From contig CAMUBZ010000001.1 in the NCBI GenBank assembly GCA_947087275.1, positions 1 to 64,000 on the forward strand: a DNA stretch of 64,000 nt. The letters run 5' to 3'. The notes below the pieces were generated by a model. The model saw only the letters and a program-made list of their open reading frames with translations. It was not told the DNA's origin and did no database searches. The translations under genes and the position numbers were made by a program. Below, one piece after another: positions 1 to 49,594 of the stretch; position 1 is the stretch's first letter; the number at the start of each line of letters is the position of its first letter. The DNA comes from an uncultured Candidatus Saccharibacteria bacterium (GTDB taxonomy: Bacteria; Patescibacteriota; Saccharimonadia; Saccharimonadales; Saccharimonadaceae).

Positions 1-35
1 TGACTGTACGGTAAAGCAAGTGCCCGCCTGTGAGT

Positions 36-61
36 AAAATGGAGCCTTGGGGCTCCATTTT
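36..61. terminator. bidirectional hairpin terminator
   Basis: The arms AAAATGGAGCC and GGCTCCATTTT form an 11-bp stem around a short loop, with A and T runs at the two edges, so it could stop transcription in either direction. It probably closes a gene left of the window. Confidence 0.6.
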
Positions 62-73
62 ACATTCCAAAAA

Positions 74-163
74 GTTGTCGGAATCGGTAAACTGGCGTAC
101 ATCAAAATCCCCGCGGTGAGCGTGCCGATCGGAATCCAGAACGGTGGATACGAAAGCACGTAA
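74..163 (+). pseudogene. possible sortase-like fragment
   Basis: A 29-codon open stretch with no start codon ends at TAA 161-163. It reads KVVGIGKLAYIKIPAVSVP and then IGIQNGGYEST. The pattern G-x-L-x-Y-I-x-I-P-x-x-x-V-x-x-P-I resembles the conserved strand near the start of the sortase catalytic domain. The catalytic His, Cys and Arg regions are absent and a terminator lies just upstream, so at most this is a remnant. The window encodes two sortase-type substrates elsewhere (26188 and 40570). The match is short and could be chance. Confidence 0.3.
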
Positions 164-218
164 AAATTGGAATGCAGAAAAGTATTTATTTTTGGCTTCG
201 GTGAAAACCGGAGGAATA

Positions 219-370
219 GGCAGTCGGAAGAAGGCGCGGCGTAGCCGCCCTTTCCGACTGCCGTTAAGAGTCGGCGTGCCTTGCGCACGCCGACGATACA
301 CCCTCTCCTTGCCTTTTGGCAAGGAGAGGGTACTAGATGTTTGAACTTGTAACGTCGTTACAAGTTCAAA
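219..370. repeat. array of four consecutive hairpins
   Basis: Four strong inverted repeats follow each other with almost no spacing. They are 219-229/252-262 (GGCAGTCGGAA), 270-279/285-294 (GTCGGCGTGC), 300-313/318-331 (14-bp stem, TTTT loop) and 340-354/356-370 (15-bp arms around one base). No U-tract follows them, so they are not simple terminators. They lie just upstream of the MazF-like gene and near the reverse transcriptase. Confidence 0.65.
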
Positions 371-468
371 AGTTATTTGTCTCTGTTTGCAAAATGATTT
401 TGATGTTTTATCGTGCTTGTGATTGTAAGTTTAACTTAAAATATGCTACACTCTGGGAATAACTAAAA

Positions 469-873
469 ATGGGAGTAAAGGTGGAAGAGAAACATTTTGA
501 TGAATGGATGGATTTAAAGAAAAGTTTACATAATATGAATCGGTTGCGGTTGGTTCATGAAGGTGAAATTTGGTGGTGTGCGATGGGCGAAAATGTTGGT
601 ATAGAAATTAATGGCAAACATAAGGTGTATTCACGTCCAGTGTTAGTATTCAAGAAGTTAAGTCGTTTTGGCTTTATGGGTATTCCGTTAACATCGCAGT
701 TTCATGAGGGCAATTGGTATGCACCATTTGTTTTTCAGGATAAAAGGGAAATTGCTGCACTTGCACAAGCGAGAGTACTAAGCGTAGCGAGACTTTACAA
801 GAGAATGGGGACGATGTCCGATTCGGACTTCAAACTAATTAAAAGTGCTTTCGCGCGACTTTATTTGGGGTAA
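469..873 (+). CDS. PemK/MazF-like endoribonuclease toxin
   Basis: The 134-aa product carries a PemK/MazF-type core: GEIWWCAMGENVG (about residues 32-44), RPVLVFKKLS (56-65) and GIPLTSQ (73-79), which matches the G-x-I-W/Y strand, R-P-v-l-v strand and PLTS strand of the family. These proteins cleave mRNA and normally pair with a small antitoxin encoded just upstream. No antitoxin ORF is visible; upstream DNA holds only the hairpin array. A TACACT -10 box (447-452) lies 16 nt before the ATG. It converges on the reverse transcriptase gene, and a terminator between them serves the latter. It may be a solitary PemK-like protein with an accessory role in the RT island; family call firm, role uncertain. 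Confidence 0.75.
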   Translation: MGVKVEEKHFDEWMDLKKSLHNMNRLRLVHEGEIWWCAMGENVGIEINGKHKVYSRPVLVFKKLSRFGFMGIPLTSQFHEGNWYAPFVFQDKREIAALAQARVLSVARLYKRMGTMSDSDFKLIKSAFARLYLG

Positions 874-892
874 GTATTATAATAAAAATGTC

Positions 893-917
893 CCCCAGTC
901 AGCCTCTGCTGCTGGGG
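893..917 (-). terminator. terminator of the reverse transcriptase operon
   Basis: CCCCAG/CTGGGG arms flank an internal loop. On the minus strand the hairpin is followed by a T-rich run (plus-strand A run near 882-888), as expected for an intrinsic terminator behind the minus-strand RT gene. Confidence 0.55.
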
Positions 918-969
918 TTGGACGGGTATCCCCGAATATACTTCTATTATAGCAAAAATTTCACTGAAG

Positions 970-2184
970 TCAAGATTTTTGTTGGCGGGGATGTTGCTTA
1001 CGATATTCCTCCTCTGGTACCCAATCGAATTCCCAACCAAAAGTATCAAAAACTTGTTTGAGAAACTTGCGACTATTGATATGTTTCATATTGCCCATGC
1101 GCGCCACAAAACCATCAATGTCGCCTTCGCCGTTGGTGGCAAGTTTATAGGCGGCTTTGTAACAGTTATTACGTACACGCTTGCCAGGAATGATGAAACG
1201 TGGGTAAACCACGGCACCAATGAACGGGATGCCTTTGTCGGCGGGTTGTTTGTATTGTTTCTTGGGGTGCAAGGTAAGTTTGAGTTCGCGCCGGAGATAT
1301 TTTTCAATGACTTTAACGTCGCGCAAAAGTTGCTCGCGCTTCCATATGGGGACGAGGATAAAAAAGTCATCCACGTAGCGCCCGTAATGTTTGTAACCGA
1401 GGTCAAATTGGATAAAACGGTCCAGTTGGTCGAGGAAAATATTTGATAAGAGTTGGCTGGTGAGGTTACCAATTACAATTCCGCTGCCCTTGGGCTGGTT
1501 GAAGAGGCTTTTGCTAGGCGGCAACTGTTTCCAATCGGAGCGTTTTCCACGAATGGCAATATCGCGCATCGGTTCGTCAAAAATCACCTCATGCCAGAGA
1601 TATTTGAGTGTGCCGTAGAGGCGATCCCGGTCATCGGGGTGACAGCGGATGCCATTTTCTTTGTCTGGGCGCGTGTTATGATAGAATTGTTGCTCTAGAC
1701 CCCAGAGGATGCGTTCGTATAATAATTTGTGGTCTAGACTCATAAAATACCCTTGAATATCGAGTTTGACGGTATAAGCGGGAATGGTATAGTTTTCGGT
1801 AACTTGGCGGAGGTGGTGAGCAAGGCGCTTTTGGCCATAAAGCGTGCCTTTGCCCTTGCGACAAGAATAAGAATCCGGGATAAAACGGCGATCCCACCAG
1901 TCAGCGCAGATGTTATAAAGAAAATGGTGTACTACGCGGTCGCGGAAGGGGGCTGCGACGATTTCTCGAATCACTGGGTCGCGCACGATAAAGGCGACGC
2001 CACGGCTAGGTTTATAATAGCGACGCATAATGCTATCGCGGAGGTCGATGGTGTCTTCCATGGCGTTAAGCTCATAGCGGTGTTCATCGACGGTGTGACG
2101 TTTGCCTTTGCGCGCGGTATCATAAGCCATCCAGAGTTCTTTGAGCAAAAATCGTTCAAAGCGTCGGTCGTCATAACTACTCAT
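970..2184 (-). CDS. reverse transcriptase, DGR type
   Basis: The 404-aa protein shows RT motifs in order: LDIQGYF (residues 141-147, first catalytic Asp), IGNLTSQ (238-244), YVDD (270-273, catalytic pair) and a K-L-x-LHPKK segment (302-309). IGNLTSQ in motif 4 is the signature that separates diversity-generating-retroelement RTs from group II intron RTs, which have QGxxxSP. There is no maturase or endonuclease domain, as expected for DGR RTs. The start overlaps the end of the upstream 331-aa gene by 8 nt, so the two are co-translated. I see no nearby template repeat. The FISUMP cassettes elsewhere in the window are the obvious type of DGR target, but their variation is not adenine-specific. 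Family call strong; the function here is open. Confidence 0.88.
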   Translation of the reverse strand: MSSYDDRRFERFLLKELWMAYDTARKGKRHTVDEHRYELNAMEDTIDLRDSIMRRYYKPSRGVAFIVRDPVIREIVAAPFRDRVVHHFLYNICADWWDRRFIPDSYSCRKGKGTLYGQKRLAHHLRQVTENYTIPAYTVKLDIQGYFMSLDHKLLYERILWGLEQQFYHNTRPDKENGIRCHPDDRDRLYGTLKYLWHEVIFDEPMRDIAIRGKRSDWKQLPPSKSLFNQPKGSGIVIGNLTSQLLSNIFLDQLDRFIQFDLGYKHYGRYVDDFFILVPIWKREQLLRDVKVIEKYLRRELKLTLHPKKQYKQPADKGIPFIGAVVYPRFIIPGKRVRNNCYKAAYKLATNGEGDIDGFVARMGNMKHINSRKFLKQVFDTFGWEFDWVPEEEYRKQHPRQQKS

Positions 2185-3172
2185 GGTCAGCGGCCTTTTG
2201 TTGGTCTTTGCGACGCTGTTTAGCGTATTCGCGAGCAGTGATGCGTTCGATTTCGACTAACCTTTCTAGAATATCACAAAGTTCACGGTGGTGGATGAGG
2301 CGGAGGTTCTCGATATTGGCCAGATTGTTGCGTAAATTGCGTGTATAGAGCAAAAGATTCAGGAGATTCTGGGCCTGGGTGGATTGCGGCTTGGTGGGGT
2401 GGCCGGTGGAAGAATAGGTAGAATTGGCGGGTTGATGCACAATACCAGAACTGGGTTTGGCGTTGGCGAAGTTGAGGTAGCTCACGAGCATCTCGTTAGC
2501 GTCCATAATCATGGGGCGAACAAGGGTTTCACGAGCGAGAGTATCAGAAATCCGCTTGCAATTATGATAAAGCAAGCGGTTCATTTCCAAAATCAGCGTA
2601 TAAAGTTCGGGAATGGGCGAAAGGGGAAGAATGATTGAAGTAATACGTTCAATATCTTGGTGGGAGCGGTCGCGCAGTTTGGCGATTTGCTCGTCATTAT
2701 AAACCTTTGGGAGTTTGTAAAAGTGAAGTTCGTCGGTCGAGAGTTTGCGATCAGGGAAGATGTTGATTTCGGCGAGCTGCAACTCTAGTTGCTCGATAGC
2801 GCGAATTGACACGACGCCGTCTTCGGAGCGGGAATAATCATCGGTATCATTCTTGACACTATAACGGCGGTGGATGCGGTCAGCGATAGTCAAAGTATAA
2901 AATAACACCGAGCGCCCAGCGATTTTTGAGAAATTGTCGGTTGAATCAAAAACTAAGAGGTGGTGATCGTTGGTTTGCTCAAATTCCATCACTTGAGCCT
3001 TGATGATACGTTGGCGTTGACGTAGGGCTTGACGAGCGGCGCGAGCAGCGGCTTTACTAGTGGAAGAAGGAGGGTCTTGTTGAATTTTTTTGAGGACAAT
3101 TTCGAGTTGATGTAGATCGAGATCGGCGTATTTGTCAATTTCGGCGGTCTTGATCGACGGCGGTTTTGTCAT
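2177..3172 (-). CDS. helical protein co-transcribed with RT, possible Avd-like accessory factor
   Basis: This 331-aa, mostly helical protein has a low-complexity linker near residues 245-270 (S/T/P/Q-rich) and a C-terminal helical segment beginning LLNLLLYTRNLRNNLANIEN and ending in a basic tail (KQRRKDQQKAADHE). DGR RTs often work with Avd, a small four-helix-bundle protein that binds template RNA. The C-terminal ~65 residues could fold that way but the protein is much longer than Avd, so this is inference from position and helicity. Its -10 (TATAAT, reverse complement of 3211-3216) is back to back with the promoter of the plus-strand gene at 3247. A CTGGAG ribosome site precedes ATG 3172. 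Confidence 0.6.
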   Translation of the reverse strand: MTKPPSIKTAEIDKYADLDLHQLEIVLKKIQQDPPSSTSKAAARAARQALRQRQRIIKAQVMEFEQTNDHHLLVFDSTDNFSKIAGRSVLFYTLTIADRIHRRYSVKNDTDDYSRSEDGVVSIRAIEQLELQLAEINIFPDRKLSTDELHFYKLPKVYNDEQIAKLRDRSHQDIERITSIILPLSPIPELYTLILEMNRLLYHNCKRISDTLARETLVRPMIMDANEMLVSYLNFANAKPSSGIVHQPANSTYSSTGHPTKPQSTQAQNLLNLLLYTRNLRNNLANIENLRLIHHRELCDILERLVEIERITAREYAKQRRKDQQKAADHE

Positions 3173-3210
3173 TTGCTTTTAATTTCTCCAGATTTTTTGT
3201 GCTTATGTTT

Positions 3211-3228
3211 ATTATAACATGCTATAAT
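3211..3228. promoter_or_regulatory. back-to-back divergent -10 boxes
   Basis: ATTATA (3211-3216) read on the minus strand is TATAAT for the 331-aa/RT operon. TATAAT at 3223-3228, within TGCTATAAT (extended -10), serves the plus-strand gene. The same arrangement recurs at 40099-40120. Confidence 0.6.
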
Positions 3229-3246
3229 GTTAGAAAGGAGAAAACT

Positions 3247-3540
3247 ATGGCGCTGATTGACGAAGAATTTATGACCGAAGTTGGTTTGGGCGAGATGCCA
3301 GCAGCAGAGAAGCAAGCCTTTATGGAACAAGCAACGGAAGAGTTGGAAGTGCGAGTGGGGCAGCAAATTAGTGCTGGTTTGACGCCAGAACAAATGCAGG
3401 AGTTTAATCAAATTGAAGATAGCGCCGAAGTGGCAAACTGGTTAGATCAGAACGTGCCCGGGTTCCGGGAAGAGGTTTTGCAAGTGTTTCGGCAGTTCAA
3501 ACAGGAGCTGATGCAGAACCGTCAACAGATTTTGGCTTGA
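3247..3540 (+). CDS. small acidic DUF5663-like protein
   Basis: The 97-aa acidic protein starts at ATG 3247 behind GAAAGGAG, in preference to an upstream in-frame ATG at 3166 that overlaps the promoter. The sequence (LIDEEFMTEVGLGEMP at the N-terminus, then alternating acidic and hydrophobic helices with NQIEDSAEVANWLDQNVP) resembles DUF5663, a short helical family common in CPR genomes with unknown role. A second such protein is encoded at 23023. Nothing shows a catalytic site or a signal peptide. Confidence 0.7.
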   Translation: MALIDEEFMTEVGLGEMPAAEKQAFMEQATEELEVRVGQQISAGLTPEQMQEFNQIEDSAEVANWLDQNVPGFREEVLQVFRQFKQELMQNRQQILA

Positions 3541-3595
3541 CAAGTTTTGCAATGTGTGCTAAGATAAAAGTATAAGGGCTTTGCTTAGCCCTGTC
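3537..3595 (+). promoter_or_regulatory. promoter followed by a hairpin
   Basis: TTGACA (3537-3542, overlapping the stop of the previous gene) and TAAGAT (3560-3565) are 17 nt apart in the same GTGTGCTA context as the shared promoters further right. The predicted transcript begins with a stem AAGGGCT/AGCCCT and would run antisense into the 3' end of fmt. Confidence 0.4.
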
Positions 3596-3609
3596 TTGTG
3601 GTGCTTTGA

Positions 3610-4551
3610 CTAGTTTTTGGCGTAGCCGTTGAGGAAAGATTTGACGTCCATGGGCTTTTTGCCTTCGGGTTGCAAACGGTCGATGGCGACAAAATTGCGA
3701 TCAGCGCATTTGAGCATGAGTGGAGTGCTGAGCTCGGGTGCCAGGGAAGGATCACAGATGATGTCGTTGGTGTTGACGGTATGAGCGTCTAGAATGATGC
3801 AAGTTTTGCCATAAAATTCGTATTTGGGCTTAGGGAAGCCTTGATAAGCGACGATTTGGCGGAAAATTTCGTTGGCGGTGTGTTTTTCGGGGTGCAACAA
3901 AGAATCGTTTTTGCTGAGTTTGGTGGTGAAAGTGGCTTGAGAATTATCTTGGTCTACAGGGCTCATCTTGCGGATTTGAGAAAGATTAGCTACGAGCCAA
4001 TCGGCGCCAGCAGTAGCCAGAGCGTGATAAATTTCGGTCTTGTTGATAGGTAAGTCGGATAAGGCGGCTTGATGATAAATCGGCCCCGCATCCATGGCTT
4101 TGACTAAACGCATAATAGAATAACTAAAATCGGTGTCACCAGCGAGGATAGCAGATTCAATAGGCGAAGCGCCGCGATATTTGGGCAGTAATGAGGGGTG
4201 CAGATTGAGGATACCTTCGGGGGCAAAAGCGTCAAGGACATCGCTTTTGATCATAACGCCAAAAGAGGCCAAGACACCAAAGGCTTCGGGGTATTGTTGT
4301 TTGAAGGTGACTGCTGTGGTGAGGTCGTCCTTGGTGCGGGCGTGAAAGAGAATTTCGCAATGTGCTTGTAGTACTTCTAGTGTAAAATCGGCTAGTGGGC
4401 CGTTGCCGAAGAAGATTATTTTGGGAGATTTTGCCATTTCGTCTTCTCGGGCGACGCGTCGCTCAGGCCCGTCGTTACGGGCTTCGCGCGCTGCATGCTT
4501 GGCTGTAGCCTCTGCACCCGCCCTCAAAGACGTAGTAGCAAAATCTCCCAT
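3610..4551 (-). CDS. fmt: methionyl-tRNA formyltransferase
   Basis: It formylates initiator Met-tRNA. The Rossmann-type N-terminus (PKIIFFGNG), the folate-site region LHPSLLPKYRGASPIESA and the C-terminal half (PKPKYEFYGKTCIILDA) fit Fmt. Two starts are possible. ATG 4551 lies one base after the def stop, giving translational coupling, but reads through a palindromic element (4423-4549) that adds about 38 Arg/Ala-rich residues. ATG 4437 gives a normal 275-aa protein beginning MAKSPKIIFFG. The extension is stop-free, like the in-frame insertions in recJ and priA, so I give the longer form but cannot decide. def and fmt act in the same formyl-methionine cycle. Confidence 0.9.
   Translation of the reverse strand: MGDFATTSLRAGAEATAKHAAREARNDGPERRVAREDEMAKSPKIIFFGNGPLADFTLEVLQAHCEILFHARTKDDLTTAVTFKQQYPEAFGVLASFGVMIKSDVLDAFAPEGILNLHPSLLPKYRGASPIESAILAGDTDFSYSIMRLVKAMDAGPIYHQAALSDLPINKTEIYHALATAGADWLVANLSQIRKMSPVDQDNSQATFTTKLSKNDSLLHPEKHTANEIFRQIVAYQGFPKPKYEFYGKTCIILDAHTVNTNDIICDPSLAPELSTPLMLKCADRNFVAIDRLQPEGKKPMDVKSFLNGYAKN
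4423..4549. repeat. long palindromic element at the fmt start
   Basis: Perfect 12-bp arms GGGAGATTTTGC (4423-4434) and GCAAAATCTCCC (4538-4549) enclose further paired blocks and an inner hairpin at 4466-4482 (GGCCCGTCGTTACGGGC). The same 17-nt inner hairpin occurs in the element inside the glycosyltransferase (28538-28554). One arm is the normal start region of fmt and the other supplies an alternative ATG coupled to def. Confidence 0.75.
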
Positions 4552-4552
4552 A

Positions 4553-5128
4553 CTAATCCTCAGGGAATAAGTTAGCGTTATCTTTGATTTCAGAATCGTA
4601 GTCGACGGGTTGGAGATCGCCCTTGTCGTCAAGACGATAGAAAGCGTCCTGATCATCGCGAATGTGATCGATAAAGAGGATACCATTGAGGTGATCGATT
4701 TCATGCATCAGGGTGCGGGCGAGGTAGCCATCCGCTTTGATGCGGACCTCGGTGCCGTCTTCAAGCTGAGCTTTTACTTTGACCTTGTGCGGTCGGCCGA
4801 CCAAGCCATAAATTTCGGGTACAGAGAGGCAGCCTTCGTGTTCTTTGATGATTTTGCCTTCGGTTTTGATAACTTCGGGGTTGATGAGGGCGGTGAAAGA
4901 ATTGTTCTTCTTGTCGTCAAAATCATCGCGCACGATGATAATGCGCTGGTTGACGCCCATCTGCGGGGCGGCCATGGCGGCGGATAGCTCATATGGGTGG
5001 GCCTTTTCCCAATCCAGCGAGAGCCGTACCATATCGGCGATAATTGCGTGAGTATCGTCGGTGATGTGGTTGACTTTGGTGGATTTTTGCCTGAGACGTG
5101 GGTCAGGGGTAGTGATGATTGATCTCAT
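4553..5128 (-). CDS. def: peptide deformylase
   Basis: This 191-aa metalloenzyme removes the N-formyl group from new proteins. The three family motifs are present: AAMAAPQMG (50-58, the G-x-G-x-A-A-x-Q loop), EGCLS (98-102, with metal ligand C100) and HEIDH (142-146; ligands H142 and H146, catalytic E143). A -10 box (reverse complement of 5137-5142) lies 8 nt before the ATG, so the message is probably leaderless. fmt follows immediately. Confidence 0.95.
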   Translation of the reverse strand: MRSIITTPDPRLRQKSTKVNHITDDTHAIIADMVRLSLDWEKAHPYELSAAMAAPQMGVNQRIIIVRDDFDDKKNNSFTALINPEVIKTEGKIIKEHEGCLSVPEIYGLVGRPHKVKVKAQLEDGTEVRIKADGYLARTLMHEIDHLNGILFIDHIRDDQDAFYRLDDKGDLQPVDYDSEIKDNANLFPED

Positions 5129-5210
5129 ATCTTATAATTATAGCACATTTTTGCCTAAATAAGATGCTTGTGGTAGGTAAAAGTGTTTGAAATATGCTAC
5201 AATGCTTGGC

Positions 5211-5493
5211 ATGATAAAATCAAGAGGTGTTTTAACTGATAATGGTGTACGCCTGCAACCGCATGAAAGGCTAACAGTGGACTTTTTCTTGGATCGAGGC
5301 GATAATGTATAAACATGCGGTTAAACAATCACCGAATCTGATTATTGATTTACGCAGACTGGAGTTTTCTTTACAAGGGCGAGTGAAAAGAATGTTCGAA
5401 AAGCGATTCCGAGAATCGGCACGGATAGAACGCATGCTAATCATAACAAATCGGAATTTGACAAAATTCACAAAAGGTTCTTGTAAAATTTGA
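5211..5493 (+). pseudogene. decayed CdiA-type tRNase toxin domain
   Basis: Two overlapping short frames read as the two ends of one domain. The first (5211-5306) gives GVLTDNGVRLQPHERLTVDF, the second (5305-5493) gives VKQSPNLIIDLRRLEF and then RESARIERMLIITNRN. In contact-dependent-inhibition nuclease domains a similar 'HE..TV..L...G' start is followed by a catalytic middle (PD-I-...-W-E-x-K-S type) and then 'QSxNxIIDLRR...R..R.MxVITK'. That middle is missing and the frame breaks at GATAATGTATAA, so it is a remnant with an internal deletion. A TACAAT box lies at 5198-5203 and a strong terminator follows at 5520-5566. The assignment is from memory of the family pattern. Confidence 0.5.
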
Positions 5494-5519
5494 TGAACTG
5501 ATTTATACTAAATGCAGAT

Positions 5520-5566
5520 GAGGGCGGCATAACTCCAGTGGGAGTTATGCCGAGCCCTCGTTTTTT
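5520..5566 (+). terminator. intrinsic terminator
   Basis: GAGGGC and GCCCTC arms extend an inner CATAACTCC/GGAGTTATG stem, followed by TTTTTT on the plus strand. It ends the toxin-remnant transcript before the convergent priA. Confidence 0.85.
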
Positions 5567-5567
5567 G

Positions 5568-7658
5568 TTAGAGAATGGATGGCGGGTCAAGTTCAAGGTG
5601 GAACTTTTGGAAGGGGACAAGGGCTTTTTGTAAGCGGGCGCGAGAGGTGGACTTGACGATGAGCTGCCAGGTGAACCCGCGGTTGCCGCGTTCGTGGAAG
5701 GCAGGCATCGGGGGTGAAACTTGAATACCAGGCGTGTTATTAAGTTGTTGATAGGCTTGTTGGATCTTGGCTAGAGTGGTTTTTTCGGTTTTGTAGGTGA
5801 TAGTGAGGCGAGCGAGGTAGGTAAAGGGGGGGAGTTGCTGACTGTGGCGCTTTTTGAGAAGATATTGGGCAAAAGCAGGGTAATCGGCCTTCATAGCGGT
5901 TTGGATGGCGGGGTGGTCGGGTTGATAGGTTTGAACCACGACACTAGCAGTGTCAAGGTGCCCACGGCCGACGCGCCCAATTACTTGAGTCAGGAGTTCA
6001 AAACTGCGCTCCTCGGCAGCAAAATCAGGCAAAGAGAGTCCAGAATCGGCTTGAACGACGCCGACAGTGGCGAGGTGCGGTAAATCTAGGCCGCGCGCAA
6101 GGGTTTGTGTGCCAATGAGGATGTTAATTTCGCCAGATTTGACGGCTTGATAAAGCTGGGCTAGGCTGGTATCTTTTTTGTTGTCACCATCAAAACGGGT
6201 GATTTTGGCTTGAGGAAAGAGACGACTGAGTTCAGTTTCGAGCAATTTGGTGCCAAAACCTTTATGAATAATGCCGGGGTGGTGGCAATTGGGGCAAGAT
6301 GAGGGGACCTTTTCTTCGTGGCCACAGATATGACAAGTGAGGAGGTAACCGTCAGCATGCAGGGTCATGTGGAGATAGCATTCGGGGCAAAGCGCCTGCC
6401 AGCCACATTCTTCACAGATGGTGAGGGGTGATGAACCGCGACGATTATGGAAAATTAGGGTTTGGTGGTGATTGTGCAGATTTTCGGTGATTTTGGCTAG
6501 CAGTTGGTTAGAAAAATAGCGGTTTTTGAGGAAATTAGCGCGGTCTTTGAGGTCGACGATGGTGATTTCGGGGTCAATAGCGGTGGATTTGGCTTTTTGG
6601 TTGAGCTCAACGAGGGAATTATGAGTTTTGGCGAGGTGATAATCGACGATATTAGGGGTGGCGGTGCCGGCAATACAAGGGATTTTGAGTTGACCAGCAA
6701 TAAAACTGGCGAGACGGAGAGCAGAATAGCGAGGGGAGTTTTCTTGATAATAGGCACCCTCATGGGCTTCGTCGATGATGATTAGCCCAAGGTTACCAAG
6801 GGGTGAGAGCAGGGCGGAACGTGGCCCGATGACGATTTGCGGTTGGTTGGTATTGCAAGTGTTTTCGAGCAAGGTGAGCCAAGTTTTACGGCGTTCGGTC
6901 ATGGTTTGGTTGGAATGGATGAGAGTGACAAGATTGCCAAAAGTTTGCTCAAAAATGTGGACTAATTGACTGGTGAGAGCTATTTCTGGCACTAAGAGGA
7001 TAACCGATTTTTGCTGTTTAAGGGTATCAGCAGCCATTTTGAGGTAGATATTGGTTTTACCGCTACCAGTAACGCCTCTGAGCAAACGAGTGGCTCCTGG
7101 GGCTTCCTGGAGGGCTCTGAGAGCCTTTTGTTGGGCGGGATTGAGCACTACTATAGGCAACTTCCCCTGCTGGTACGGACTCAGGTTAATATTAGATCCA
7201 CCTCTAGCACGCTTGTCAGTGGCGGGTGAAGTCTTCGACGTGTTGTCCTGCGGACTTGTAACACGTCTCTGGACTTCAGCCCTGTTTATACTGACGCACG
7301 CACTAGAGGTGGTCTTATTATTTGATTTCGTATCAGCAGAGCGAATTACCCCTCTAGCTGCCAGCCCGGCAGGGAGCATAAGGTTGGCGCAGGCTGGGAG
7401 TGGGGAAAGATAATATTGTGAGAGCCACGGAATCGCCGCAAGAAGGTGCCGCGGGATTGGAGTGGCGGTGATAACGCGGTTGATAGGTTTGGTGGCAAAT
7501 TTGGCCTCCTGGACTGGTTTAAGCACAATTCCGGTGATGAGACGCCGCCCTAAGGGGACCAAAACTACTTGACCGGGGAGGAGCTTTTGGTCGGATTGGT
7601 AGGTCAACGCGCCGCCATTTTCCCGAAAGACTTCGGTTGGTATCACCTCATAATACAT
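5568..7658 (-). CDS. priA: primosomal helicase PriA, with palindrome insertion
   Basis: This 696-aa SF2 helicase restarts replication forks. Visible parts: N-terminal 3'-DNA-binding region, Walker A GVTGSGKT, DEAH box DEAHEGAYY, and the zinc-binding segment between the helicase lobes with CEECGWQALCPEC and CHICG/CPNC pairs. Between the N-terminal region and the helicase core lies a low-complexity stretch rich in S, T, N and R, encoded by the palindromic element at 7188-7320. The reading frame stays open through it. A TATAAT box (complement of 7665-7670) six bases before the ATG suggests a leaderless message. Confidence 0.93.
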   Translation of the reverse strand: MYYEVIPTEVFRENGGALTYQSDQKLLPGQVVLVPLGRRLITGIVLKPVQEAKFATKPINRVITATPIPRHLLAAIPWLSQYYLSPLPACANLMLPAGLAARGVIRSADTKSNNKTTSSACVSINRAEVQRRVTSPQDNTSKTSPATDKRARGGSNINLSPYQQGKLPIVVLNPAQQKALRALQEAPGATRLLRGVTGSGKTNIYLKMAADTLKQQKSVILLVPEIALTSQLVHIFEQTFGNLVTLIHSNQTMTERRKTWLTLLENTCNTNQPQIVIGPRSALLSPLGNLGLIIIDEAHEGAYYQENSPRYSALRLASFIAGQLKIPCIAGTATPNIVDYHLAKTHNSLVELNQKAKSTAIDPEITIVDLKDRANFLKNRYFSNQLLAKITENLHNHHQTLIFHNRRGSSPLTICEECGWQALCPECYLHMTLHADGYLLTCHICGHEEKVPSSCPNCHHPGIIHKGFGTKLLETELSRLFPQAKITRFDGDNKKDTSLAQLYQAVKSGEINILIGTQTLARGLDLPHLATVGVVQADSGLSLPDFAAEERSFELLTQVIGRVGRGHLDTASVVVQTYQPDHPAIQTAMKADYPAFAQYLLKKRHSQQLPPFTYLARLTITYKTEKTTLAKIQQAYQQLNNTPGIQVSPPMPAFHERGNRGFTWQLIVKSTSRARLQKALVPFQKFHLELDPPSIL
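7188..7320. repeat. palindromic element inside priA, family copy A
   Basis: Outer arms around CCACCTCTAG (7199-7208 region) and CTAGAGGTGG (7303-7312) extend to TAATA/TTATTA. The inner core 7222-7286 is a nested hairpin that matches 46190-46254 over 65 nt with nine differences, eight of which form four compensating base-pair changes. The element is translated in frame within PriA. Confidence 0.85.
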
Positions 7659-7738
7659 AGGGATATTATAGCACAGGGCAATTTTGGGTTTGTAAAAAAC
7701 ACAACAAAGGCGTATAATAGAGGTAGAGGAGAGGTAAA

Positions 7739-8038
7739 ATGTTAGATATCTTCATTACATCACGAGTGCGGCGTAAGATTGTCGTAGTTTTTGCGAAATA
7801 TCCCGATTTTAAGACACATGTGCGGGCGCTGTCGAAGTTGATTAAGGAAGATCCGGGCAATATTCAGCGCGAGTTGCAGCGGTTGGAGCGCGGTGGGTTT
7901 TTGTTGGTGACACAAAAGGGTAATACCAAGATCTATCAGATGAATAAGCAATTCCCGTTGCTCAAGGAGTTGCAAAGTATGGTGATAAAGTCACAACAGA
8001 TGTCCAAGACCAATAAAGCCGACAAATCTCTAGGGTAA
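7739..8038 (+). CDS. winged-helix DNA-binding protein
   Basis: This 99-aa protein has the layout of a short ArsR/MarR-like winged helix: a leading helix (SRVRRKIVVVFAKYP), a helix-turn-helix (HVRALSKLIKEDPGNIQRELQRLERGG split over residues 22-49) and a wing (FLLVTQKGNTKIYQMN). 'P-x-N-x-x-R-E-L-x-R-L-E-x-x-G-x-L' is typical of transcriptional regulators. It has a GAGGAGAGG site before the ATG. recJ starts 9 nt after its stop, so they probably form one operon. Its target is unknown. Confidence 0.75.
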   Translation: MLDIFITSRVRRKIVVVFAKYPDFKTHVRALSKLIKEDPGNIQRELQRLERGGFLLVTQKGNTKIYQMNKQFPLLKELQSMVIKSQQMSKTNKADKSLG

Positions 8039-8047
8039 TTTGCAGGC

Positions 8048-9766
8048 GTGAGTGCGCTGTTTGAGGAGTTGTTGCGGATACGCGAGGTGGAGCCGGGTTT
8101 TTTGAACCCCAAATATGAAGAATGCGTGAACCCGATGATGTTGCCAGATATGCAAAAGGCGGTGGCGCGGATTCGTTTAGCGGTGGAGCGGCGCGAGAAG
8201 GTGATAATTTATGGCGACTATGATGCCGATGGCGTAACGGCGAGTACGGTGTTGCATGATACCTTGGTGCTTGCAGGGGTTCTGGCGGAAAATCTGGAAA
8301 TTATGTTGCCAAACCGGTTTGCGGATGGTTATGGTATGAGCACAAAAGTTGTGAAGCGAGCTACCGAAACGGGGGTGAAGTTAGTGATGACGGTAGACTG
8401 TGGAAGCCGTAATCACGAAATTGTGGAACAGTTGAATGCGCAAGGGGTGGACGTGATTATTACGGATCACCACGAATGTGCGGAGACGCTGCCTCAGGCA
8501 GTAGCCGTAGTTAACCCAAAACGGAGAGATTTGAGTGTGTATGGGAGCGAACTTGCTGGTGGCGAGCAATCTCTCGGCGCGCGCGGGTCGGATTCTTTAG
8601 ATGACGAGAGCGCGCCTGTGCTCGCAGAAGCAAGTTTGCAACTATGTGGGCTACGAGATCTGGCAGGGGTGGGTGTGGTGTTTAAGTTGGCGCAAGCCTT
8701 GGTGCGGGCGGGGATGATTCCGGAAGGGCAAGAAAAATGGTTGTTGGATTTGGTGCTGATTGGTACAGTGTGCGATAGCATGCGCCTCCGAGGAGAGAAT
8801 CGACGGCTATGTTATTATGGATTTAAGGTTCTAGAAAAGACGCGGCGCGCAGGGTTGAAGGAACTGATGTTAGCCGCAGGGGTAAAACGGTTGAACAGTG
8901 AAGCGGTGGGGTTTCAGGTCGGGCCGCGTCTGAACGCCGCGGGTCGCATGGAAAGTGCCGATCAGGCGTTGCAACTGCTGCTGGCTGAGAGTCGGCCACA
9001 GGCGGCGGCGTTAGCGTTGCAACTAGAGAATTTGAATAAGTCACGCAAAACCCAGCAGCAGGCAGCGCTAAAAGAGATTACGACCCGCGGCGTAGAGGGC
9101 GGGGCGGTGATGGTCGAATGTGGGGATTGGCATGAGGGCATTTTGGGGATTGTGGCCGGGAAACTAGTGGAGCAATATCACCGCCCCGCCATAGTGCTCG
9201 CCGAAACCGGCGAGGAATATAAAGGCTCAGGCCGCAGCTTCGGTGAGTTTAATCTGGCAGAGGCCCTGACGGTTTGTAAAGATTACATTATTTCTGGTGG
9301 TGGCCACGCCGAAGCCTGCGGCCTGAAAGTAGCTAAAGACAAAATTGCCGATTTTCGGCGAGCCATTAATGCCTATTATGATGGATTACAACTCAAGAAC
9401 CAGGAGCGGTTTTTGGACGTGAAGGAAGATTTGGCGGTAACGGATTTTGAGCAGCTATCTCTAGAACTAGTGGCGGAATTACAAAAGTTGGAACCGTATG
9501 GTATAGGTAATGAGGAGCCGATTTTTCTCTTGCCAGAGGTGCGCGTGATCGAAGCAGCAAAACTCGGCGTCGACGGTAAGCATCTGCGTTTGACGGTTTG
9601 GGATCAAAATGGTAAAAGTTTGAAGTTAATCCAGTTTTATGCACCAGAAGAATACCTCAAATTACGGGGTGGGGAAGTCATAAATGCCTGGATTACGCTG
9701 GGAGAAAATGAGTTTCGGGGGTTGCGCAGCGTGGAGGGGAGAATTGTGAAGTTAGCCGTATTGTAG
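8048..9766 (+). CDS. recJ: single-strand DNA exonuclease RecJ, with palindrome insertion
   Basis: This 572-aa DHH-family 5'-3' exonuclease acts in recombinational and mismatch repair. It shows YGDYDADGVT (about 55-64), the DHH motif in TDHHE (about 139-143), and the DHHA1 motif GGHAEACG in the C-terminal half, followed by an OB-like domain. Between NPKRRDLSVY and LCGLRDLAGVG a segment of about 33 acidic and small residues is inserted, exactly where the palindromic element 8547-8639 lies. In other RecJ proteins this loop is short. The start codon is GTG or ATG-like at 8048, closely following the regulator gene. Confidence 0.92.
   Translation: MSALFEELLRIREVEPGFLNPKYEECVNPMMLPDMQKAVARIRLAVERREKVIIYGDYDADGVTASTVLHDTLVLAGVLAENLEIMLPNRFADGYGMSTKVVKRATETGVKLVMTVDCGSRNHEIVEQLNAQGVDVIITDHHECAETLPQAVAVVNPKRRDLSVYGSELAGGEQSLGARGSDSLDDESAPVLAEASLQLCGLRDLAGVGVVFKLAQALVRAGMIPEGQEKWLLDLVLIGTVCDSMRLRGENRRLCYYGFKVLEKTRRAGLKELMLAAGVKRLNSEAVGFQVGPRLNAAGRMESADQALQLLLAESRPQAAALALQLENLNKSRKTQQQAALKEITTRGVEGGAVMVECGDWHEGILGIVAGKLVEQYHRPAIVLAETGEEYKGSGRSFGEFNLAEALTVCKDYIISGGGHAEACGLKVAKDKIADFRRAINAYYDGLQLKNQERFLDVKEDLAVTDFEQLSLELVAELQKLEPYGIGNEEPIFLLPEVRVIEAAKLGVDGKHLRLTVWDQNGKSLKLIQFYAPEEYLKLRGGEVINAWITLGENEFRGLRSVEGRIVKLAVL
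8547..8639. repeat. palindromic element inside recJ
   Basis: The arms GCGAACTTGCT (8547-8557) and AGCAAGTTTGC (8629-8639) enclose GGCGAGCA/TGCTCGC and CTCTCGxCGCGC/GCGCGxGAG blocks, giving a long bulged hairpin. Its length keeps the RecJ frame open. Confidence 0.75.
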
Positions 9767-9787
9767 ACAATCTTGAGGCGTCTACCA

Positions 9788-9892
9788 TTGACATTTTTGG
9801 AATTCTGTGCTATTATGAAATCATAAGCCCTATGTAGGGCGCTATCTGTAGTGGTGTATAACAAAAAATAACCCCTTGCGAGGTTATTTTTG
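9788..9892 (+). ncRNA. candidate small RNA
   Basis: TTGACA (9788-9793) and TATTAT (9811-9816) are 17 nt apart. The predicted transcript starts near 9823, begins with a GCCCT/AGGGC hairpin and ends at a terminator near 9892, about 65-70 nt. The next plus-strand gene is 400 nt away, beyond that terminator and an opposing gene, so the promoter seems to serve only this RNA. Confidence 0.4.
9863..9892. terminator. bidirectional terminator
   Basis: AAAATAACC and GGTTATTTT arms with A/T flanks on both sides. It can end both rpsU (minus) and the small RNA (plus). Confidence 0.75.
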
Positions 9893-9894
9893 GA

Positions 9895-10113
9895 TTATTT
9901 CAGCCCAAGGCGCATACGCTCGGCCTTCTCAGCGCGACGAATCTCGCGGATGATAGCCTTGCTGCGGCGCTCACGCTTGGAAATTGGCTTAGAGAAGCGC
10001 ATCTGCGACTTCTTGAGGGGCATAATCCCGCTCTGCAAAACCTTGCGGTTGAACCGACGGATGAGGTTTTCATTAGCCTCGTTCTGATCTTTACGTGTAA
10101 CTTTGATTGCCAT
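9895..10113 (-). CDS. rpsU: 30S ribosomal protein bS21
   Basis: This 72-aa very basic protein has the bS21 pattern: an N-terminal strand (MAIKVTRKD), ENLIRRFNRKVLQSGI, and a long Arg/Lys/Glu helix (KPISKRERRSKA, EIRRAEKAERMR). It sits in the 30S platform and contacts the anti-Shine-Dalgarno region. It is of interest here because so many genes look leaderless. Confidence 0.92.
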   Translation of the reverse strand: MAIKVTRKDQNEANENLIRRFNRKVLQSGIMPLKKSQMRFSKPISKRERRSKAIIREIRRAEKAERMRLGLK

Positions 10114-10150
10114 ACTATCTGCATTATATCAAATATATCTTTATTATGCA

Positions 10151-10279
10151 ACCCCTTTACATCTTTATTAACGATATCCGGTGGGCCTCTCCTCATCTAA
10201 AGAAACCCTCCGGGCGGGCTCTGCCATACGGAACCGGCTCAGCCGAGAAATGATGTCTTATAACAAAGATATAAAGGGT
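10151..10279. repeat. palindromic element upstream of adk
   Basis: Left arm 10151-10177 (ACCCCTTTACATCTTTATTA...) and right arm 10253-10279 (...TAACAAAGATATAAAGGGT) are inverted copies with few mismatches, and inner CCGGT/ACCGG blocks pair. The element ends one base before the adk -10 box. Confidence 0.7.
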
Positions 10280-10293
10280 GTATAATATAAGGC

Positions 10294-10836
10294 ATGATTA
10301 TTTTGATGGGCTTAGCAGGTAGCGGCAAAAGTACACAGGGGCAGTTGTTAGCGCAAGAGACAGGGCGCGTGTGGTTGTCGACAGGGCAGATTTTGCGGGA
10401 TTTGGGGGATGCAGAACTCCAGGCCGCTCTTAAACGAGGGGAGTTGGCGCCAGATAGTGTAATAATACCGTTACTAGAGGCCGAATTGCAGGATTTGGCA
10501 GCAAAGGGGAAAGATTGCGTATTGGACGGTTTTCCGCGTACCGCGCCACAGGCACAGTGGGTGGTGGAGAGTATAGCGGATCGGATAGAGATGGTGGTAC
10601 GGATTATAGTACCAAAAGATGAATTGGTGCGACGGATGCAGCTGAGGGGGCGAGCAGACGACCAAAGTTTGGAAGCGATAACAGAGAGGTTTCGATTGGC
10701 TGAACAAAATATTTATTCAATTTGTGAGATTTTGCAGAGCAAGGGAATTAAGATTGTAGATGTGGATGGAATAGGTACGGTAGAGGAGGTGCAAGCACGA
10801 ATGAAACAGGTAATAACAGAGGTAGAAAATGAATAA
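10294..10836 (+). CDS. adk: adenylate kinase
   Basis: The 180-aa protein interconverts ATP + AMP and 2 ADP. It has a P-loop MGLAGSGKST (5-14), the AMP-site DGFPRT motif, and a short LID (RLRGRADDQ type without the zinc insertion). The P-loop is GSGKST instead of the usual GAGKGT, so another NMP kinase is possible, though DGFPRT favours Adk. TATAAT at 10281-10286 is 7 nt before the ATG, so it is probably leaderless. It overlaps map by 8 nt. Confidence 0.85.
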   Translation: MIILMGLAGSGKSTQGQLLAQETGRVWLSTGQILRDLGDAELQAALKRGELAPDSVIIPLLEAELQDLAAKGKDCVLDGFPRTAPQAQWVVESIADRIEMVVRIIVPKDELVRRMQLRGRADDQSLEAITERFRLAEQNIYSICEILQSKGIKIVDVDGIGTVEEVQARMKQVITEVENE

Positions 10837-11614
10837 AAAATTTATACATCCTGTGGAAAACTCCCAGGAACTAGAGAAGAAAATTGCAGCAATGCGCAAG
10901 GGTGGCAAAATTTTGGGGAATTTGCTGCGTGATTTGAAGGCATATGTGCAACCCGGGATGACAGGAAGGGAAATTGACGCCTGGGTGCGGGCAGAGATCG
11001 TGAAGCGGGGGGCGAAGGTGGCGTATGATTATCTAGAAGAGAGTTTCCCTGGGGCGATTTGCATTTCGGTGAATGATGAGTTGGTGCATGGTGCGCCGAC
11101 GGATGAAGTGTTGGAAGAAGGAGATAAGGTGAGTTTTGATCTTGATGTGTTATATGACGGATATTATACCGATTCGGCTTTTACGATGATTGTAGGCAAA
11201 AAAGGTTCTCCTGCGGTGAAACAGATGATTGTGACGACGGAGCGCGCAATGTGGGCGGGAATTGATGTGGTCAAAGCGGGCACCAAAATTGGTGATATTG
11301 GCTATGCGGTAGAGAAAGTACTACGACAAGGTAAACTAGGGGTGATCGAGAATTATATTGGCCATGGGATTGGCAAAGAGATGCATATGAAGCCCGATGT
11401 GCCAAATTATGGGGTGCGGGGGCATGGTTATATTCTAAAAGTGGGGGATACGATTTGTATTGAACCGATGTCGTCCTTGGGAAAACCGGCTAATTATGTG
11501 GATCGAGAGAGTAATTGGACGGTCAAGATGAAGGATGGATCAATCGGTTGTCACTGCGAGCACACGATTTTGGTAACAGAGGATGGTTGCGAAGTATTGA
11601 CCTTGGCGGATTAG
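10829..11614 (+). CDS. map: methionine aminopeptidase type I
   Basis: The 261-aa enzyme trims N-terminal methionine after deformylation. It has the pita-bread fold signatures: SVNDELVHGAP, the first Asp ligands in SFDLDVLYDGYYTDSAFT, the His in YIGHGIGKEMH, and Glu ligands in CIEPMSSL and CEHTILVTEDG. The start overlaps adk, so both are translated from one mRNA. Gene pair adk-map is a common bacterial arrangement, here detached from the ribosomal operon. Confidence 0.95.
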   Translation: MNKKFIHPVENSQELEKKIAAMRKGGKILGNLLRDLKAYVQPGMTGREIDAWVRAEIVKRGAKVAYDYLEESFPGAICISVNDELVHGAPTDEVLEEGDKVSFDLDVLYDGYYTDSAFTMIVGKKGSPAVKQMIVTTERAMWAGIDVVKAGTKIGDIGYAVEKVLRQGKLGVIENYIGHGIGKEMHMKPDVPNYGVRGHGYILKVGDTICIEPMSSLGKPANYVDRESNWTVKMKDGSIGCHCEHTILVTEDGCEVLTLAD

Positions 11615-11669
11615 TTTCTTGAGGTTTTTGGCGGTTGTAATTTGTTAAGAATTACGCTATAATGAGCTT

Positions 11670-12893
11670 ATGGATGAAATTTCGCGCTATGCAGTTGGAC
11701 TAGATGTTGGCACAAATAATGTGCGGACCGTGGTGGCGAGCGTGACACATGGTGGGGCTTTGAATGTGATTGGCTATGCCGAGGTGCCAAATTCTGGGAT
11801 GCGCCGCGGTGTGGTGGCGAATCTTTCGGGTCCAGCGCAAGCGATTGACCGAGCCCTGGGCGAAGCGGAGCGGATGAGTGGTCATGAGGTGAATAGTGCG
11901 ACGATTTCGATTAACGGTGCACAGATTGTGTCAACGCGCACTGAGGGGATGATTGCCGTCGGTGGCATGGAACACGAGATTACAGAGAGTGACTTAGCGC
12001 GGGTAGAAGATGTGGCATTGCAGGGTAGAATTCCGGCCAATCAAGCCGTGCTGAAGGTAATTCCGTTACAATTTGTGCTTGATGGTCAAGGTGGAATCAA
12101 AGACCCACTTGGGATGACGGGTTCAAGATTGGAAATGAAGGCCAATGTGGTGTCAACAATGACGCCAAATTATGAAAATTTGCGTAAGACGGCTGAGCAA
12201 GCAAATGTGACGGCTGAACAGGTGGTACCGAGTGTAGAAGCGGCCGCACGAGCAGTATTGACCGAGCGTCAACGTGAAAACGGTGTGGCGGTAGTGGATA
12301 TTGGTGCAGCGACGACGGGCGTAGCGGTTTATGAAGAGAATGATTTGCAATATATTGGGGTAGTGCCAGTTGGGTCAAATAATATTACCAATGATTTGGC
12401 CGTGATGTTGGCGATTGATACGGAGGTGGCAGAGGAAATTAAACGACGATTTGCCACAGGTAGTTTTGGCTCGGTGGATGCGCCAGTAGTGATAAGGTGG
12501 CGGGGCAAAGAATTGCGGTTTGAGCGGAGTCAGATTGACGAAGTGGTGCAAGCCCGAATTGAGGAAATTTTGGATTTGGTGCGCAAAGAACTCAAGAAAG
12601 CGCATTATGATCAGCGGTTACCTGAGGGTGTGGTGCTGACGGGTGGTGGGGCTAAGATGCGTGACATTGATAAATTTGTGCGTGAGGTTCTCCAGACTTC
12701 AGTCAAGGTGGGCGTGCCGGCGGGGCTGTCTGGCATGACTGACGTGCTTGGCAAGCCCGAGTACGCAACTGCTGTTGGATTGATGCTGGCTAGCCTAGAT
12801 GGTGGGTCGTTGGTTCAGGGCAAGAAAGTCCGTGGTAAGGCCAAAAAAGATAAGAAACCGGGTGTAATCAAGCGTTTCTTGAGTAAATTTTAA
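11670..12893 (+). CDS. ftsA: cell division protein FtsA
   Basis: This 407-aa actin-like protein tethers FtsZ to the membrane. It shows the phosphate-1 loop VGLDVGTNNVR, SHS2/1C subdomain, phosphate-2 VVDIGAATTGVAVY and the adenosine motif VLTGGGAKM. The C-terminus is a basic linker (KKVRGKAKKDKKP) and an amphipathic membrane-targeting helix GVIKRFLSKF. TATAAT at 11658-11663 lies 6 nt before the ATG: predicted leaderless. ftsZ follows 64 nt later with its own -10 (TATACT, 12913 region). Confidence 0.95.
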   Translation: MDEISRYAVGLDVGTNNVRTVVASVTHGGALNVIGYAEVPNSGMRRGVVANLSGPAQAIDRALGEAERMSGHEVNSATISINGAQIVSTRTEGMIAVGGMEHEITESDLARVEDVALQGRIPANQAVLKVIPLQFVLDGQGGIKDPLGMTGSRLEMKANVVSTMTPNYENLRKTAEQANVTAEQVVPSVEAAARAVLTERQRENGVAVVDIGAATTGVAVYEENDLQYIGVVPVGSNNITNDLAVMLAIDTEVAEEIKRRFATGSFGSVDAPVVIRWRGKELRFERSQIDEVVQARIEEILDLVRKELKKAHYDQRLPEGVVLTGGGAKMRDIDKFVREVLQTSVKVGVPAGLSGMTDVLGKPEYATAVGLMLASLDGGSLVQGKKVRGKAKKDKKPGVIKRFLSKF

Positions 12894-30901: not shown

Positions 30902-31132
30902 CTACATACCTAATACAGTACTAAGGCAGCGGAGGGGGAAAGCGAACCAACGTTCAAAGGGTCCTTCTGACGGATCAACAGTAGAGATATTGAAGCTCAG
31001 GTGATAGGCAGTCGCAGATAATATGGATGTATAACTTATCGCTCTTGACGGCCATTCATAACCTGCTTGACCAGCTAGATTAAAAGTAGTTCCGTTGTTT
31101 ATTCCTGGAAGATAGAGTTGCCCGCTGCGCAC
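30902..31132 (-). pseudogene. silent FISUMP C-terminal cassette 1A
   Basis: 76 codons from GTG/ATG-like RSG to the stop in the terminal repeat: RSGQLYLPGINNGTTF, GYEWPSRA, then DPSEGPFERWFAFPLRCLSTVLGM split by variable positions. It has the FISUMP-like W-x-S-R-A and F-P-L-R-C-L signatures but no N-terminal part, signal peptide or promoter. Confidence 0.65.
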
Positions 31133-31148
31133 GATAAATCTTTACTTC

Positions 31149-31376
31149 GTGCGCAGCGGGAACGTTTTTCTAGCTACTGGTATTATGTGGACTACTGGCT
31201 CTAATATGGCAATATGGTCAACATTTACAACATCAGCTAATTGGGCTCATGAGGCCATTCCAAGTGCATATCTACTTTCAGTTGATGGCAATAAAAGTGT
31301 AGCACCATCAGGTGGCCCGGTAGAGCGTAGCAATGGTCTCCCCCTCCGCTGCCTTAGTACTGTATTAGGTATGTAG
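31149..31376 (+). pseudogene. silent FISUMP C-terminal cassette 1B
   Basis: 75 codons reading RSGNVFLATG at the start and APSGGPVERSNGLPLRCL near the end. The interior is far more divergent than the ends (W-S-S-R is replaced). No start signal precedes it apart from the central inverted repeat. Confidence 0.65.
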
Positions 31377-33806: not shown

Positions 33807-34027
33807 CTACATACCTAATACAGTACTAAGGCAGCGGGTGGGTTTACTTATTTAATACAAATACTCTTCGATATATGGGAGGTGGAGGGGTTTGGTGGTC
33901 TTCACGTGCAAATTCTAATTATGCCTATTATTTTTATCTGACTAATAGCGTTAGTCCATCAAGTAATGATAATGACCGTTATTATGGTCGCTCCCTCCGC
34001 TGCCTTAGTACTGTATTAGGTATGTAG
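33807..34027. mobile_element. FISUMP cassette element 2, internally deleted
   Basis: The same terminal inverted repeats flank only about 150 nt. Only the right-hand half is readable, without its RSG start, giving GGGGLWWSSRANSNYAYYF and then VSPSSNDNDRYYGRSLRCL plus the invariant end. The left half has been deleted to its terminal repeat. The right terminal repeat overlaps the 3' end of murI. Confidence 0.75.
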
Positions 34028-42118: not shown

Positions 42119-42346
42119 TCCTACATACCTAATACAGTACTAAGGCAGCGGAGGGGGAAACTATGCCAACGGTGGTCTGGACCAGCTGATGGGACAACTG
42201 TAATATTATTGAACACAATATAATACGCACTAGGCGTAGTCGAACCATCAACACGCGTAGATGAGCCTCGTGAGGACCACATATAACTATGCAAGCCAGC
42301 ATTCCAGGCCTTACCGTTATTTGGGCTTATATCCCCGCTGCGCACG
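42119..42346 (-). mobile_element. FISUMP cassette element 3, single half
   Basis: Only one half is present. The terminal repeat (42119-42160) gives the invariant end; the inner edge is CCCGCTGCGCACG (42334-42346). It encodes 74 codons on the minus strand (RSGDISPNNGKAWNAG, YMWSSRGSS, VPSAGPDHRWHSFPLRCL). There is no partner half and no opposite terminal repeat. Confidence 0.75.
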
Positions 42347-48968: not shown

Positions 48969-49172
48969 CTATATACCTAATACAGTACTAAGGCAGCGGA
49001 GGGGGAAAGCGTGCAGGCGGTAAGAAGGGCCGTTAGATGGAGAAATAACATTACTATATATAGATAAATTATACCTATACCCAGCATTAGCAGCACGCGA
49101 TGCAACGATTCCGCCGTCGCTAGCAGGTGCTTCTATAATACCCCAGTCGGTACGGATATTCCCGCTGCGCAC
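48969..49172 (-). pseudogene. silent FISUMP C-terminal cassette 4A
   Basis: It reads RSGNIRTDWGIIEAPAS, GGIVASRAANAGYRYNLSI, ISPSNGPSYRLHAFPLRCL and the invariant end (with I in place of the last M). There is no N-terminal domain. Confidence 0.65.
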
Positions 49173-49393
49173 GGGAAACTGGTACAAAAATGTAAAACTG
49201 TACCACTTGGCTACGAATTGTAACAGGGATAAAAGACAAATCATACTGGTACAAAAGTTAAAAAGTGTATCAGTATAGTTATGTCAAAAACTAAACTGAA
49301 CTATTTTAGTGTTTTTATTCACTTGGTTATAGATCCTACCTCTGTAACCTTAAAGTAGAAATTGAATAAAACTGCTCTTTTTATTCAGTTGGC

Positions 49394-49594
49394 GTGCGCA
49401 GCGGGTATGTTAATCTAGCTGTAGTTGATGGTACGTCTGGGTTTGCTAGTCGGAACGGCTATGGTTGGTCATCGCGAGCAGTGGCTACTAATGCTTATCT
49501 CCTTGAATTTTATACTGCAGCACGTCCATCCTCAACAGGTAACCACTTCTTCGCTTTCCCCCTCCGCTGCCTTAGTACTGTATTAGGTATGTAG
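49394..49594 (+). pseudogene. silent FISUMP C-terminal cassette 4B
   Basis: It reads RSGYVNLAVVDGTSGF, NGYGWSSRAVATNAYLLEF, RPSSTGNHFFAFPLRCL and the invariant end. This copy is closest to the FISUMP consensus (Y-x-W-S-S-R-A...A-Y-x-L-x-F). Confidence 0.65.

Follow-up and report, generated by a model that had tools for sequence, protein, structure and literature searches.

A DGR-type reverse transcriptase operon in a Saccharibacteria genome carrying dispersed template units and start-less FISUMP cassettes

The window analysed here is a stretch of 64,000 nucleotides from an uncultured Candidatus Saccharibacteria bacterium. Our analysis indicates that it encodes a DGR-type reverse transcriptase (RT) and an Avd-like partner which, together, are likely to be served by many template RNAs acting in trans and feeding a repertoire of silent cassettes. 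Five sets of observations are established: the gene content, the structure and covariation of the templates, their association with one RT subclade, the adenine-biased change seen in relatives and one cassette shared by a silent site and an expressed gene. All genomes compared are metagenome assemblies.

The RT operon and its relatives

The RT gene is the only one of its type in the 829-kb assembly and overlaps by 8 bp the gene encoding a 331-aa partner (Table 1). Among solved structures, the best match of the RT is that of the BPP-1 DGR (8ub7, E 1e-20), the next RTs being found at E 1e-3. Furthermore, RTs of this family are carried by 97 of the 174 genomes of the genus, with up to four copies each. 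We examined 32 loci around the RTs of relatives by an ungapped scan in which template adenines were scored as free. Template/variable pairs of 84-303 bp were found in 29 of them, with nearly all mismatches located at template adenines (for instance, 26 out of 26 in L108 and 24 out of 25 in L115). These sister RTs, which are 42-58% identical to the window RT, thus sit in DGR loci with a variable gene nearby, usually one adjacent target gene, and one cis template. Therefore, this enzyme family works in ordinary DGRs. Matches to TIGR02145 were obtained for the variable-region genes of relatives, above its cut-off in two of the three cases. In most of the sister loci L089-L119, the template follows the RT on its 3' side and is usually carried by the opposite strand, unlike in BPP-1.

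On the basis of the best solved match and of the sister loci, and without a full RT phylogeny, the window RT is of DGR type. Assignment to defence RT families was rejected, as PADLOC and NCBIfam give only partial matches, those from NCBIfam scoring far under the curated cut-offs. The structure model of the RT (pLDDT 41) was too poor for interpretation. The RT and its partner are intact and are respectively 95% and 93% identical to those of the closest relative, L140, whereas the surrounding DNA is only ~80% identical. Hence, both proteins are under selection.

The partner has no Pfam, NCBIfam or PADLOC match and no significant PHROG match. It was modelled with AlphaFold2 from a five-sequence alignment (mean pLDDT 59), the C-terminal half being well predicted. 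Comparison of this model with VIA-align gives residues ~183-324 the four-helix fold of Avd, with Z-scores of 15.3 to Avd 4dwl and 15.2 to the Avd chain of 8ub8 and a superposition at 1.7-1.8 A over 109 residues. Z-scores below ~13 are not telling for helical bundles, and those obtained here exceed this value. Two four-helix proteins, 2gsc and 2rld, score slightly above Avd against the same domain. The N-terminal ~180 aa were modelled with low confidence and no fold could be assigned to them. The model therefore predicts that the partner combines an additional N-terminal region and an Avd domain in one fusion protein.

Table 1. Location of the features identified in the window
Feature	Position	Strand	Remarks
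Contig end	1-55	.	55 bp common to contigs C1 and C8, assembly fork
PemK/MazF-like toxin gene	469-873	+	PF02452, E 2.7e-7; 3' of RT
RT ORF	970-2184	-	404 aa; IGNLTSQ and YVDD motifs; RVT_1, E 3.4e-8
Partner ORF (predicted Avd fusion)	2177-3172	-	331 aa
DUF5663 gene	3247-3540		Divergent from the Avd-fusion gene
Start-less FISUMP cassette	30902-31132	-	VRSG...PLRCLSTVLGM*; head-to-head with 31149-31376
Start-less FISUMP cassette	31149-31376	+	16 bp from the 30902-31132 cassette
Isolated cassette 3' tail	33807-33837	-	Partial cassette
Start-less FISUMP cassette	33830-34024	+	No perfect 5' boundary
Start-less FISUMP cassette	42121-42345	-	94% identical to C2:124256-124480
Start-less FISUMP cassette	48969-49172	-	Coding part identical to C4:42497-42700
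Start-less FISUMP cassette	49394-49594	+	Mild adenine bias vs template C5:30967 (A 17/40, other 25/125, p 0.007 uncorrected)

Search for a template near the RT

No variable-protein gene adjoins the RT operon, whose neighbours are the PemK/MazF-like gene and the DUF5663 gene. The PemK/MazF-like gene has no obvious antitoxin partner, and its position 3' of the RT is conserved in L140. As contig C1 ends at window base 1, only ~970 bp of DNA are visible 3' of the RT. The interval separating the toxin gene from the contig end contains a 32-bp near-perfect palindrome (ACCCTCTCCTTGCCTTTTGGCAAGGAGAGGGT, positions 300-331).

No adenine-biased repeat pair was found in window positions 1-12000, a direct near-repeat search around the RT found nothing, and a whole-genome seed search gave no clear pair involving the RT neighbourhood. 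The ungapped scan used for the sister loci detected no local template/variable pair at the window locus, nor at the G024, G014 and G022 loci. Moreover, the covariance model of the template RNA has no match in the 64-kb window (best E 1.9) and the templates of relatives show no similarity to window positions 1-970. A short resemblance to the template tail (CGCGGTGAGCGTGCCGATCGG, near positions 112-132) was rejected, as the leader model finds nothing there. Where relatives have a template adjacent to the RT, the core of its leader starts ~120-155 bp past the RT. Three of these loci (L141, L142 and L143) carry a template RNA where the window and L140 carry the PemK-type gene, and the DNA that follows the L142 template aligns to window DNA, the toxin gene occupying the position of the template. 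When used as queries, the templates of relatives gave short matches at many places elsewhere in the genome.

An earlier sequence-only reading of the window had proposed a DGR-type RT coupled to a helical 331-aa protein, an Avd helper being frequent in such systems, with neither a visible template nor an adjacent variable-protein gene. All these claims held: the first is supported by the 8ub7 match and the adenine-mismatch pairs of 29 of the 32 sister loci, and the second by the Avd fold found in the partner.

Dispersed template units with a structured leader

A profile search of all frames revealed two classes of short FISUMP-coding unit, class T (template) and class V. Class T units are present in 12 copies on eight other contigs of the genome, none being located in the window. 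Their FISUMP-coding repeat (180-210 nt) is adenine-rich and contains many AAC codons, as in templates. It ends with a homing-type sequence (CCCCCTCCGCTGCCTT) followed by variable bases and by a tail finishing in ..GGTGCCGATCTTT. This tail was found in 6 of the 174 congeneric genomes, with 0 matches for the reversed control. Four class T units are 92-95% identical between the window genome and G197, without adenine excess, and several are located at syntenic sites in these two genomes.

When the sequences upstream of 27 class T units from five genomes were aligned, a conserved leader (~170 nt) became apparent, with an extended -10 promoter element (TATGnTAnAAT), one hairpin and a core extending from AAAGATCG to GAACTTC. 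The 3' tail of the units (CGATCTTT) is the exact complement of the leader AAAGATCG; therefore, leader and tail can enclose the template. Within the three helices of the core, 12 of the 18 pairs vary on both sides, with a count of 83 double-change cells vs 27 +/- 5 in shuffles, a pattern that is destroyed by sliding the partners. For instance, the outer arm is GAAGTTC/GAACTTC, GAAGTTG/CAACTTC, GAGGCTG/CAGCCTC or GAGGTTT/AAACCTC depending on the copy. The fold of the leader RNA is thus supported by covariation; there are no RNA data and transcription is inferred. No match to the template RNA was found in Rfam.

The covariance model of the leader core (R1), run with strict filters over the 174 genomes, matches in ten of them, all of which carry a window-type RT (>=66% identity). 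The leader is present in 12 copies in the window genome, 21 in G191 (one beside the RT), 10 in G197, 8 in G024, 5 in G190 (in tandem), 5 in G014 and one each in G192, G193, G196 and G013. It is absent from the other 164 genomes, including ~84 that carry only a sister RT and all those without RT. Three genomes (G195, G194 and G169) have a window-type RT but no leader match under the strict filters. In G190, the five tandem leaders are ~420-870 bp apart and form a template array on a small contig (L224, G190:C63:1926-4234). The leader adjoins the RT on the same strand in L141, L142 and L143; there and in G191, the template is 3' of the RT and in sense orientation. In G013, the leader is inverted and located beside a broken RT. 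The natural reading, which is an inference, is that a cis template turned into a dispersed RNA gene family and that the lineage of the window then lost the cis copy.

Silent cassettes and the expressed surface gene

Class V cassettes, of which the genome has ~70 start-less copies, have the 5' sequence GTGCGCAGCGG and the internal CCCCCTCCGCTGCCTT in common with class T units and end with AGTACTGTATTAGGTATGTAG. No long frame precedes them and the longest open frame containing the cassette tail is 137 aa. Internal stops are absent from all 68 bounded class V cassettes, whereas only 24% would be expected to be stop-free at 25% random/neutral divergence. Furthermore, pairs of cassettes have a pN/pS of ~0.65, with synonymous sites near saturation. 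Therefore, the coding sense of the cassettes is under selection, despite the lack of a preceding long frame. Their 3' tail is nearly invariant in 66 distinct copies. In the last ~40 bases this holds even at third positions, suggesting that they act as DNA or RNA.

Of 30 pairs of neighbouring cassettes, 25 are arranged head-to-head (p 3e-11), with inverted GTGCGCAGCGG ends, and several cassettes are exact duplicates found in different surroundings. Five head-to-head pairs are separated by only 14-16 bp, for instance at window positions 30902-31376; the cassettes of the 48969-49594 region are also head-to-head. Four contig ends of the window genome (C2:1, C4:62239, C3:113095 and C10:37208) fall inside cassettes, in matching pairs; cassette repeats limit its assembly. 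Genomes of the window-type RT subclade have from 18 to 142 cassette matches each. G030, which is 97% complete, has 73 cassette-like matches and no detectable RT. Therefore, cassettes do not strictly need a window-type RT, and it is possible that the cassette system of G030 outlives the RT or does without it.

A FISUMP gene of G024 (L131:13072-14931), which has a signal-peptide-like start, terminates with a cassette whose 221 bp are 99.5% identical to a silent cassette located on another contig, the flanks being different. Its homologue in the window genome (C13:12569-14005) runs off the contig within the FISUMP domain, before the cassette. Such a truncation is expected since repeats break assemblies, and no full-length gene with a cassette tail is assembled in this genome. 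Two frames of G197 (612 and 663 aa) were rejected as expressed genes, being cassettes that run into unrelated frames.

Adenine bias between templates and cassettes

The adenine bias is clear in G024 and G197. In the window genome it is weak and restricted to single pairs, and is the weakest link of the argument for this genome. In G024, the 12 closest cassettes differ from templates at 159 of 459 template adenines vs 119 of 1842 other bases (35% vs 6.5%; odds ratio 7.7, p 5e-50), a p value that is optimistic because related cassettes are not independent. In the closest template-cassette pair of G197, the differences affect 14 of 36 adenines and 8 of 143 other bases (p 1.7e-6). The best pair of the window genome differs at 21 of 44 adenines and 28 of 162 other bases (p 9e-5, among 68 pairs tested). 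When all template-cassette pairs of this genome are considered, the mismatch rates are 0.37 for A, 0.35 for C, 0.30 for G and 0.24 for T. These nearly equal rates led us to reject, as a general rule, that its cassettes are simple hypermutated copies of the current templates. The small excess of changes at adenines in most of its pairs implies that its cassettes are old or drift in some other way.

The sequence-only reading had guessed that the template was either left of the window or remote, and the remote part of this guess held, with 12 dispersed templates on other contigs. Its proposal of FISUMP-like targets also held. It had added that the lack of an adenine-biased pair anywhere in the genome would refute a DGR; the search for such a pair succeeded narrowly in the window genome, with a single pair, and clearly in close relatives. 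Neither the structured leaders of the 12 templates nor the ~70 start-less cassettes, several of which are inside the window, were visible to that reading.

Proposed mechanism and alternative explanations

In the mechanism that we consider likely, the operon would provide both DGR proteins, an error-prone RT and an Avd-fusion partner. The templates would not be provided in cis but by 12 separate template-RNA genes, each with its own promoter, leader, repeat and tail. Leader and tail of the template RNA would recruit RT-Avd, which would copy the template with adenine mutations. The cDNA would then replace matching variable regions that have the 5' GTGCGCAGCGG and the homing sequence CCCCCTCCGCTGCCTT. 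The putative targets are the ~70 silent cassettes and a full-length FISUMP surface protein with a signal peptide, for which the gene starting at C13:12569 is a candidate. Cassettes and expressed gene would swap sequence by gene conversion. Transcription, catalysis, homing and the recombination or exchange of cassettes are all inferred. According to a bolder reading, towards which the evidence leans only slightly, an autonomous family of structured template RNAs seeds and refreshes a genome-wide silent archive that is recombined into the surface gene, adenine hypermutation and gene conversion forming one system.

A first alternative is a degenerate DGR: the cis template would have been lost when the PemK region replaced it, the operon would be inactive and the scattered units would be fossils. 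The lack of a template within 970 bp of the RT, the weak adenine bias of the cassettes in the window genome and their near-saturated synonymous sites favor this view. However, the RT and its partner are intact and more conserved with L140 than the surrounding DNA, the leaders keep compensatory pairing, four templates are still 92-95% identical to those of G197, and both G197 and G024, which have scattered templates, keep the same RT. We therefore consider this alternative unlikely.

It is also unlikely that the cassettes belong to a RecA-type silent-cassette system functionally unrelated to the RT, with a DGR resemblance due only to the common FISUMP domain. The cassettes of G030 in the absence of RT, the exact duplicates in different places and the cassette common to the expressed gene and a silent site of G024 are in favor of such a system. 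Nevertheless, templates and cassettes have both boundaries in common, including the 16-nt homing-type sequence, and the cassettes of G024 and G197 differ from templates preferentially at template adenines, which is the DGR signature. Moreover, template units occur only with the window-type RT subclade.

Finally, a true cis template located just beyond the left contig end, with the scattered units as secondary copies, could be suspected since the contig stops at an assembly fork ~970 bp beyond the RT and the L140 sequence breaks off about as far from it, but this is unlikely because the leader core of relatives starts well inside this distance, the region following the L142 template matches window DNA in which the toxin gene takes the place of the template, and 12 further template genes would remain to be explained.

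Comparison with known systems

DGRs are generally seen as compact, a single template lying next to the RT. The dispersed-template reading that we favor shares several features with the BPP-1 DGR (bRT, Avd, TR, VR/mtd; 8ub7 RNP): the nearest solved RT, the Avd fold of the partner, the adenine-directed change from template to variable region (here in relatives) and a repeat whose 3' end carries a homing-type sequence, beyond which the tails diverge. However, the only template of BPP-1 lies between avd and brt, and bRT-Avd is recruited by a structured RNA, the spacer located 3' of this template (PMC12875486). Here, 12 trans templates are independent genes, the structured region is 5' of the template, a short 3' tail can pair back and the Avd fold makes up the C-terminal domain of the 331-aa partner.

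Remote targets and trans activity also characterize the DGRs of Treponema denticola, cyanobacteria and Thiohalocapsa. In Treponema, two to seven complete target genes depend on a single template (PMC4891356), and in cyanobacteria, variable proteins remote from the RT coexist with a cis template (PMC7517822). Genomes with several DGR loci, each with its own template or degenerate remains, and some trans action have also been described (PMC10907252). CPR have their own DGR clade, clade 2 (PMC8144416). Within this same lineage, the sister loci of the genus are complete DGRs with FISUMP targets, but each carries a single cis template, in most cases antisense to the RT, and the adjacent target gene is usually single.

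Neisseria pilS and Borrelia vls are known as silent-cassette systems of antigenic variation. Many promoterless and start-less cassettes with conserved ends, a full-length surface gene and cassette sharing are common to these systems and to the one proposed here. By contrast, adenine-mutating reverse transcription would add variation here, and the cassettes are spread genome-wide, mostly in head-to-head pairs. In the open-licence literature that we searched, there is no report of many template-RNA genes per RT, of start-less variable cassettes or of a DGR combined with silent cassettes.

The inferred template RNA is a DGR RNA with strong covariation whose structure is 5' of the template, in an order unlike the solved one, and it provides a sequence tag locating templates that repeat finders working near the RT would miss. 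If our reading is true, this dispersed template RNA family would show that the DGR machinery can work in trans and multiply its template repertoire. It would also mean that a DGR is coupled to a silent-cassette archive in an episymbiont with a tiny genome.
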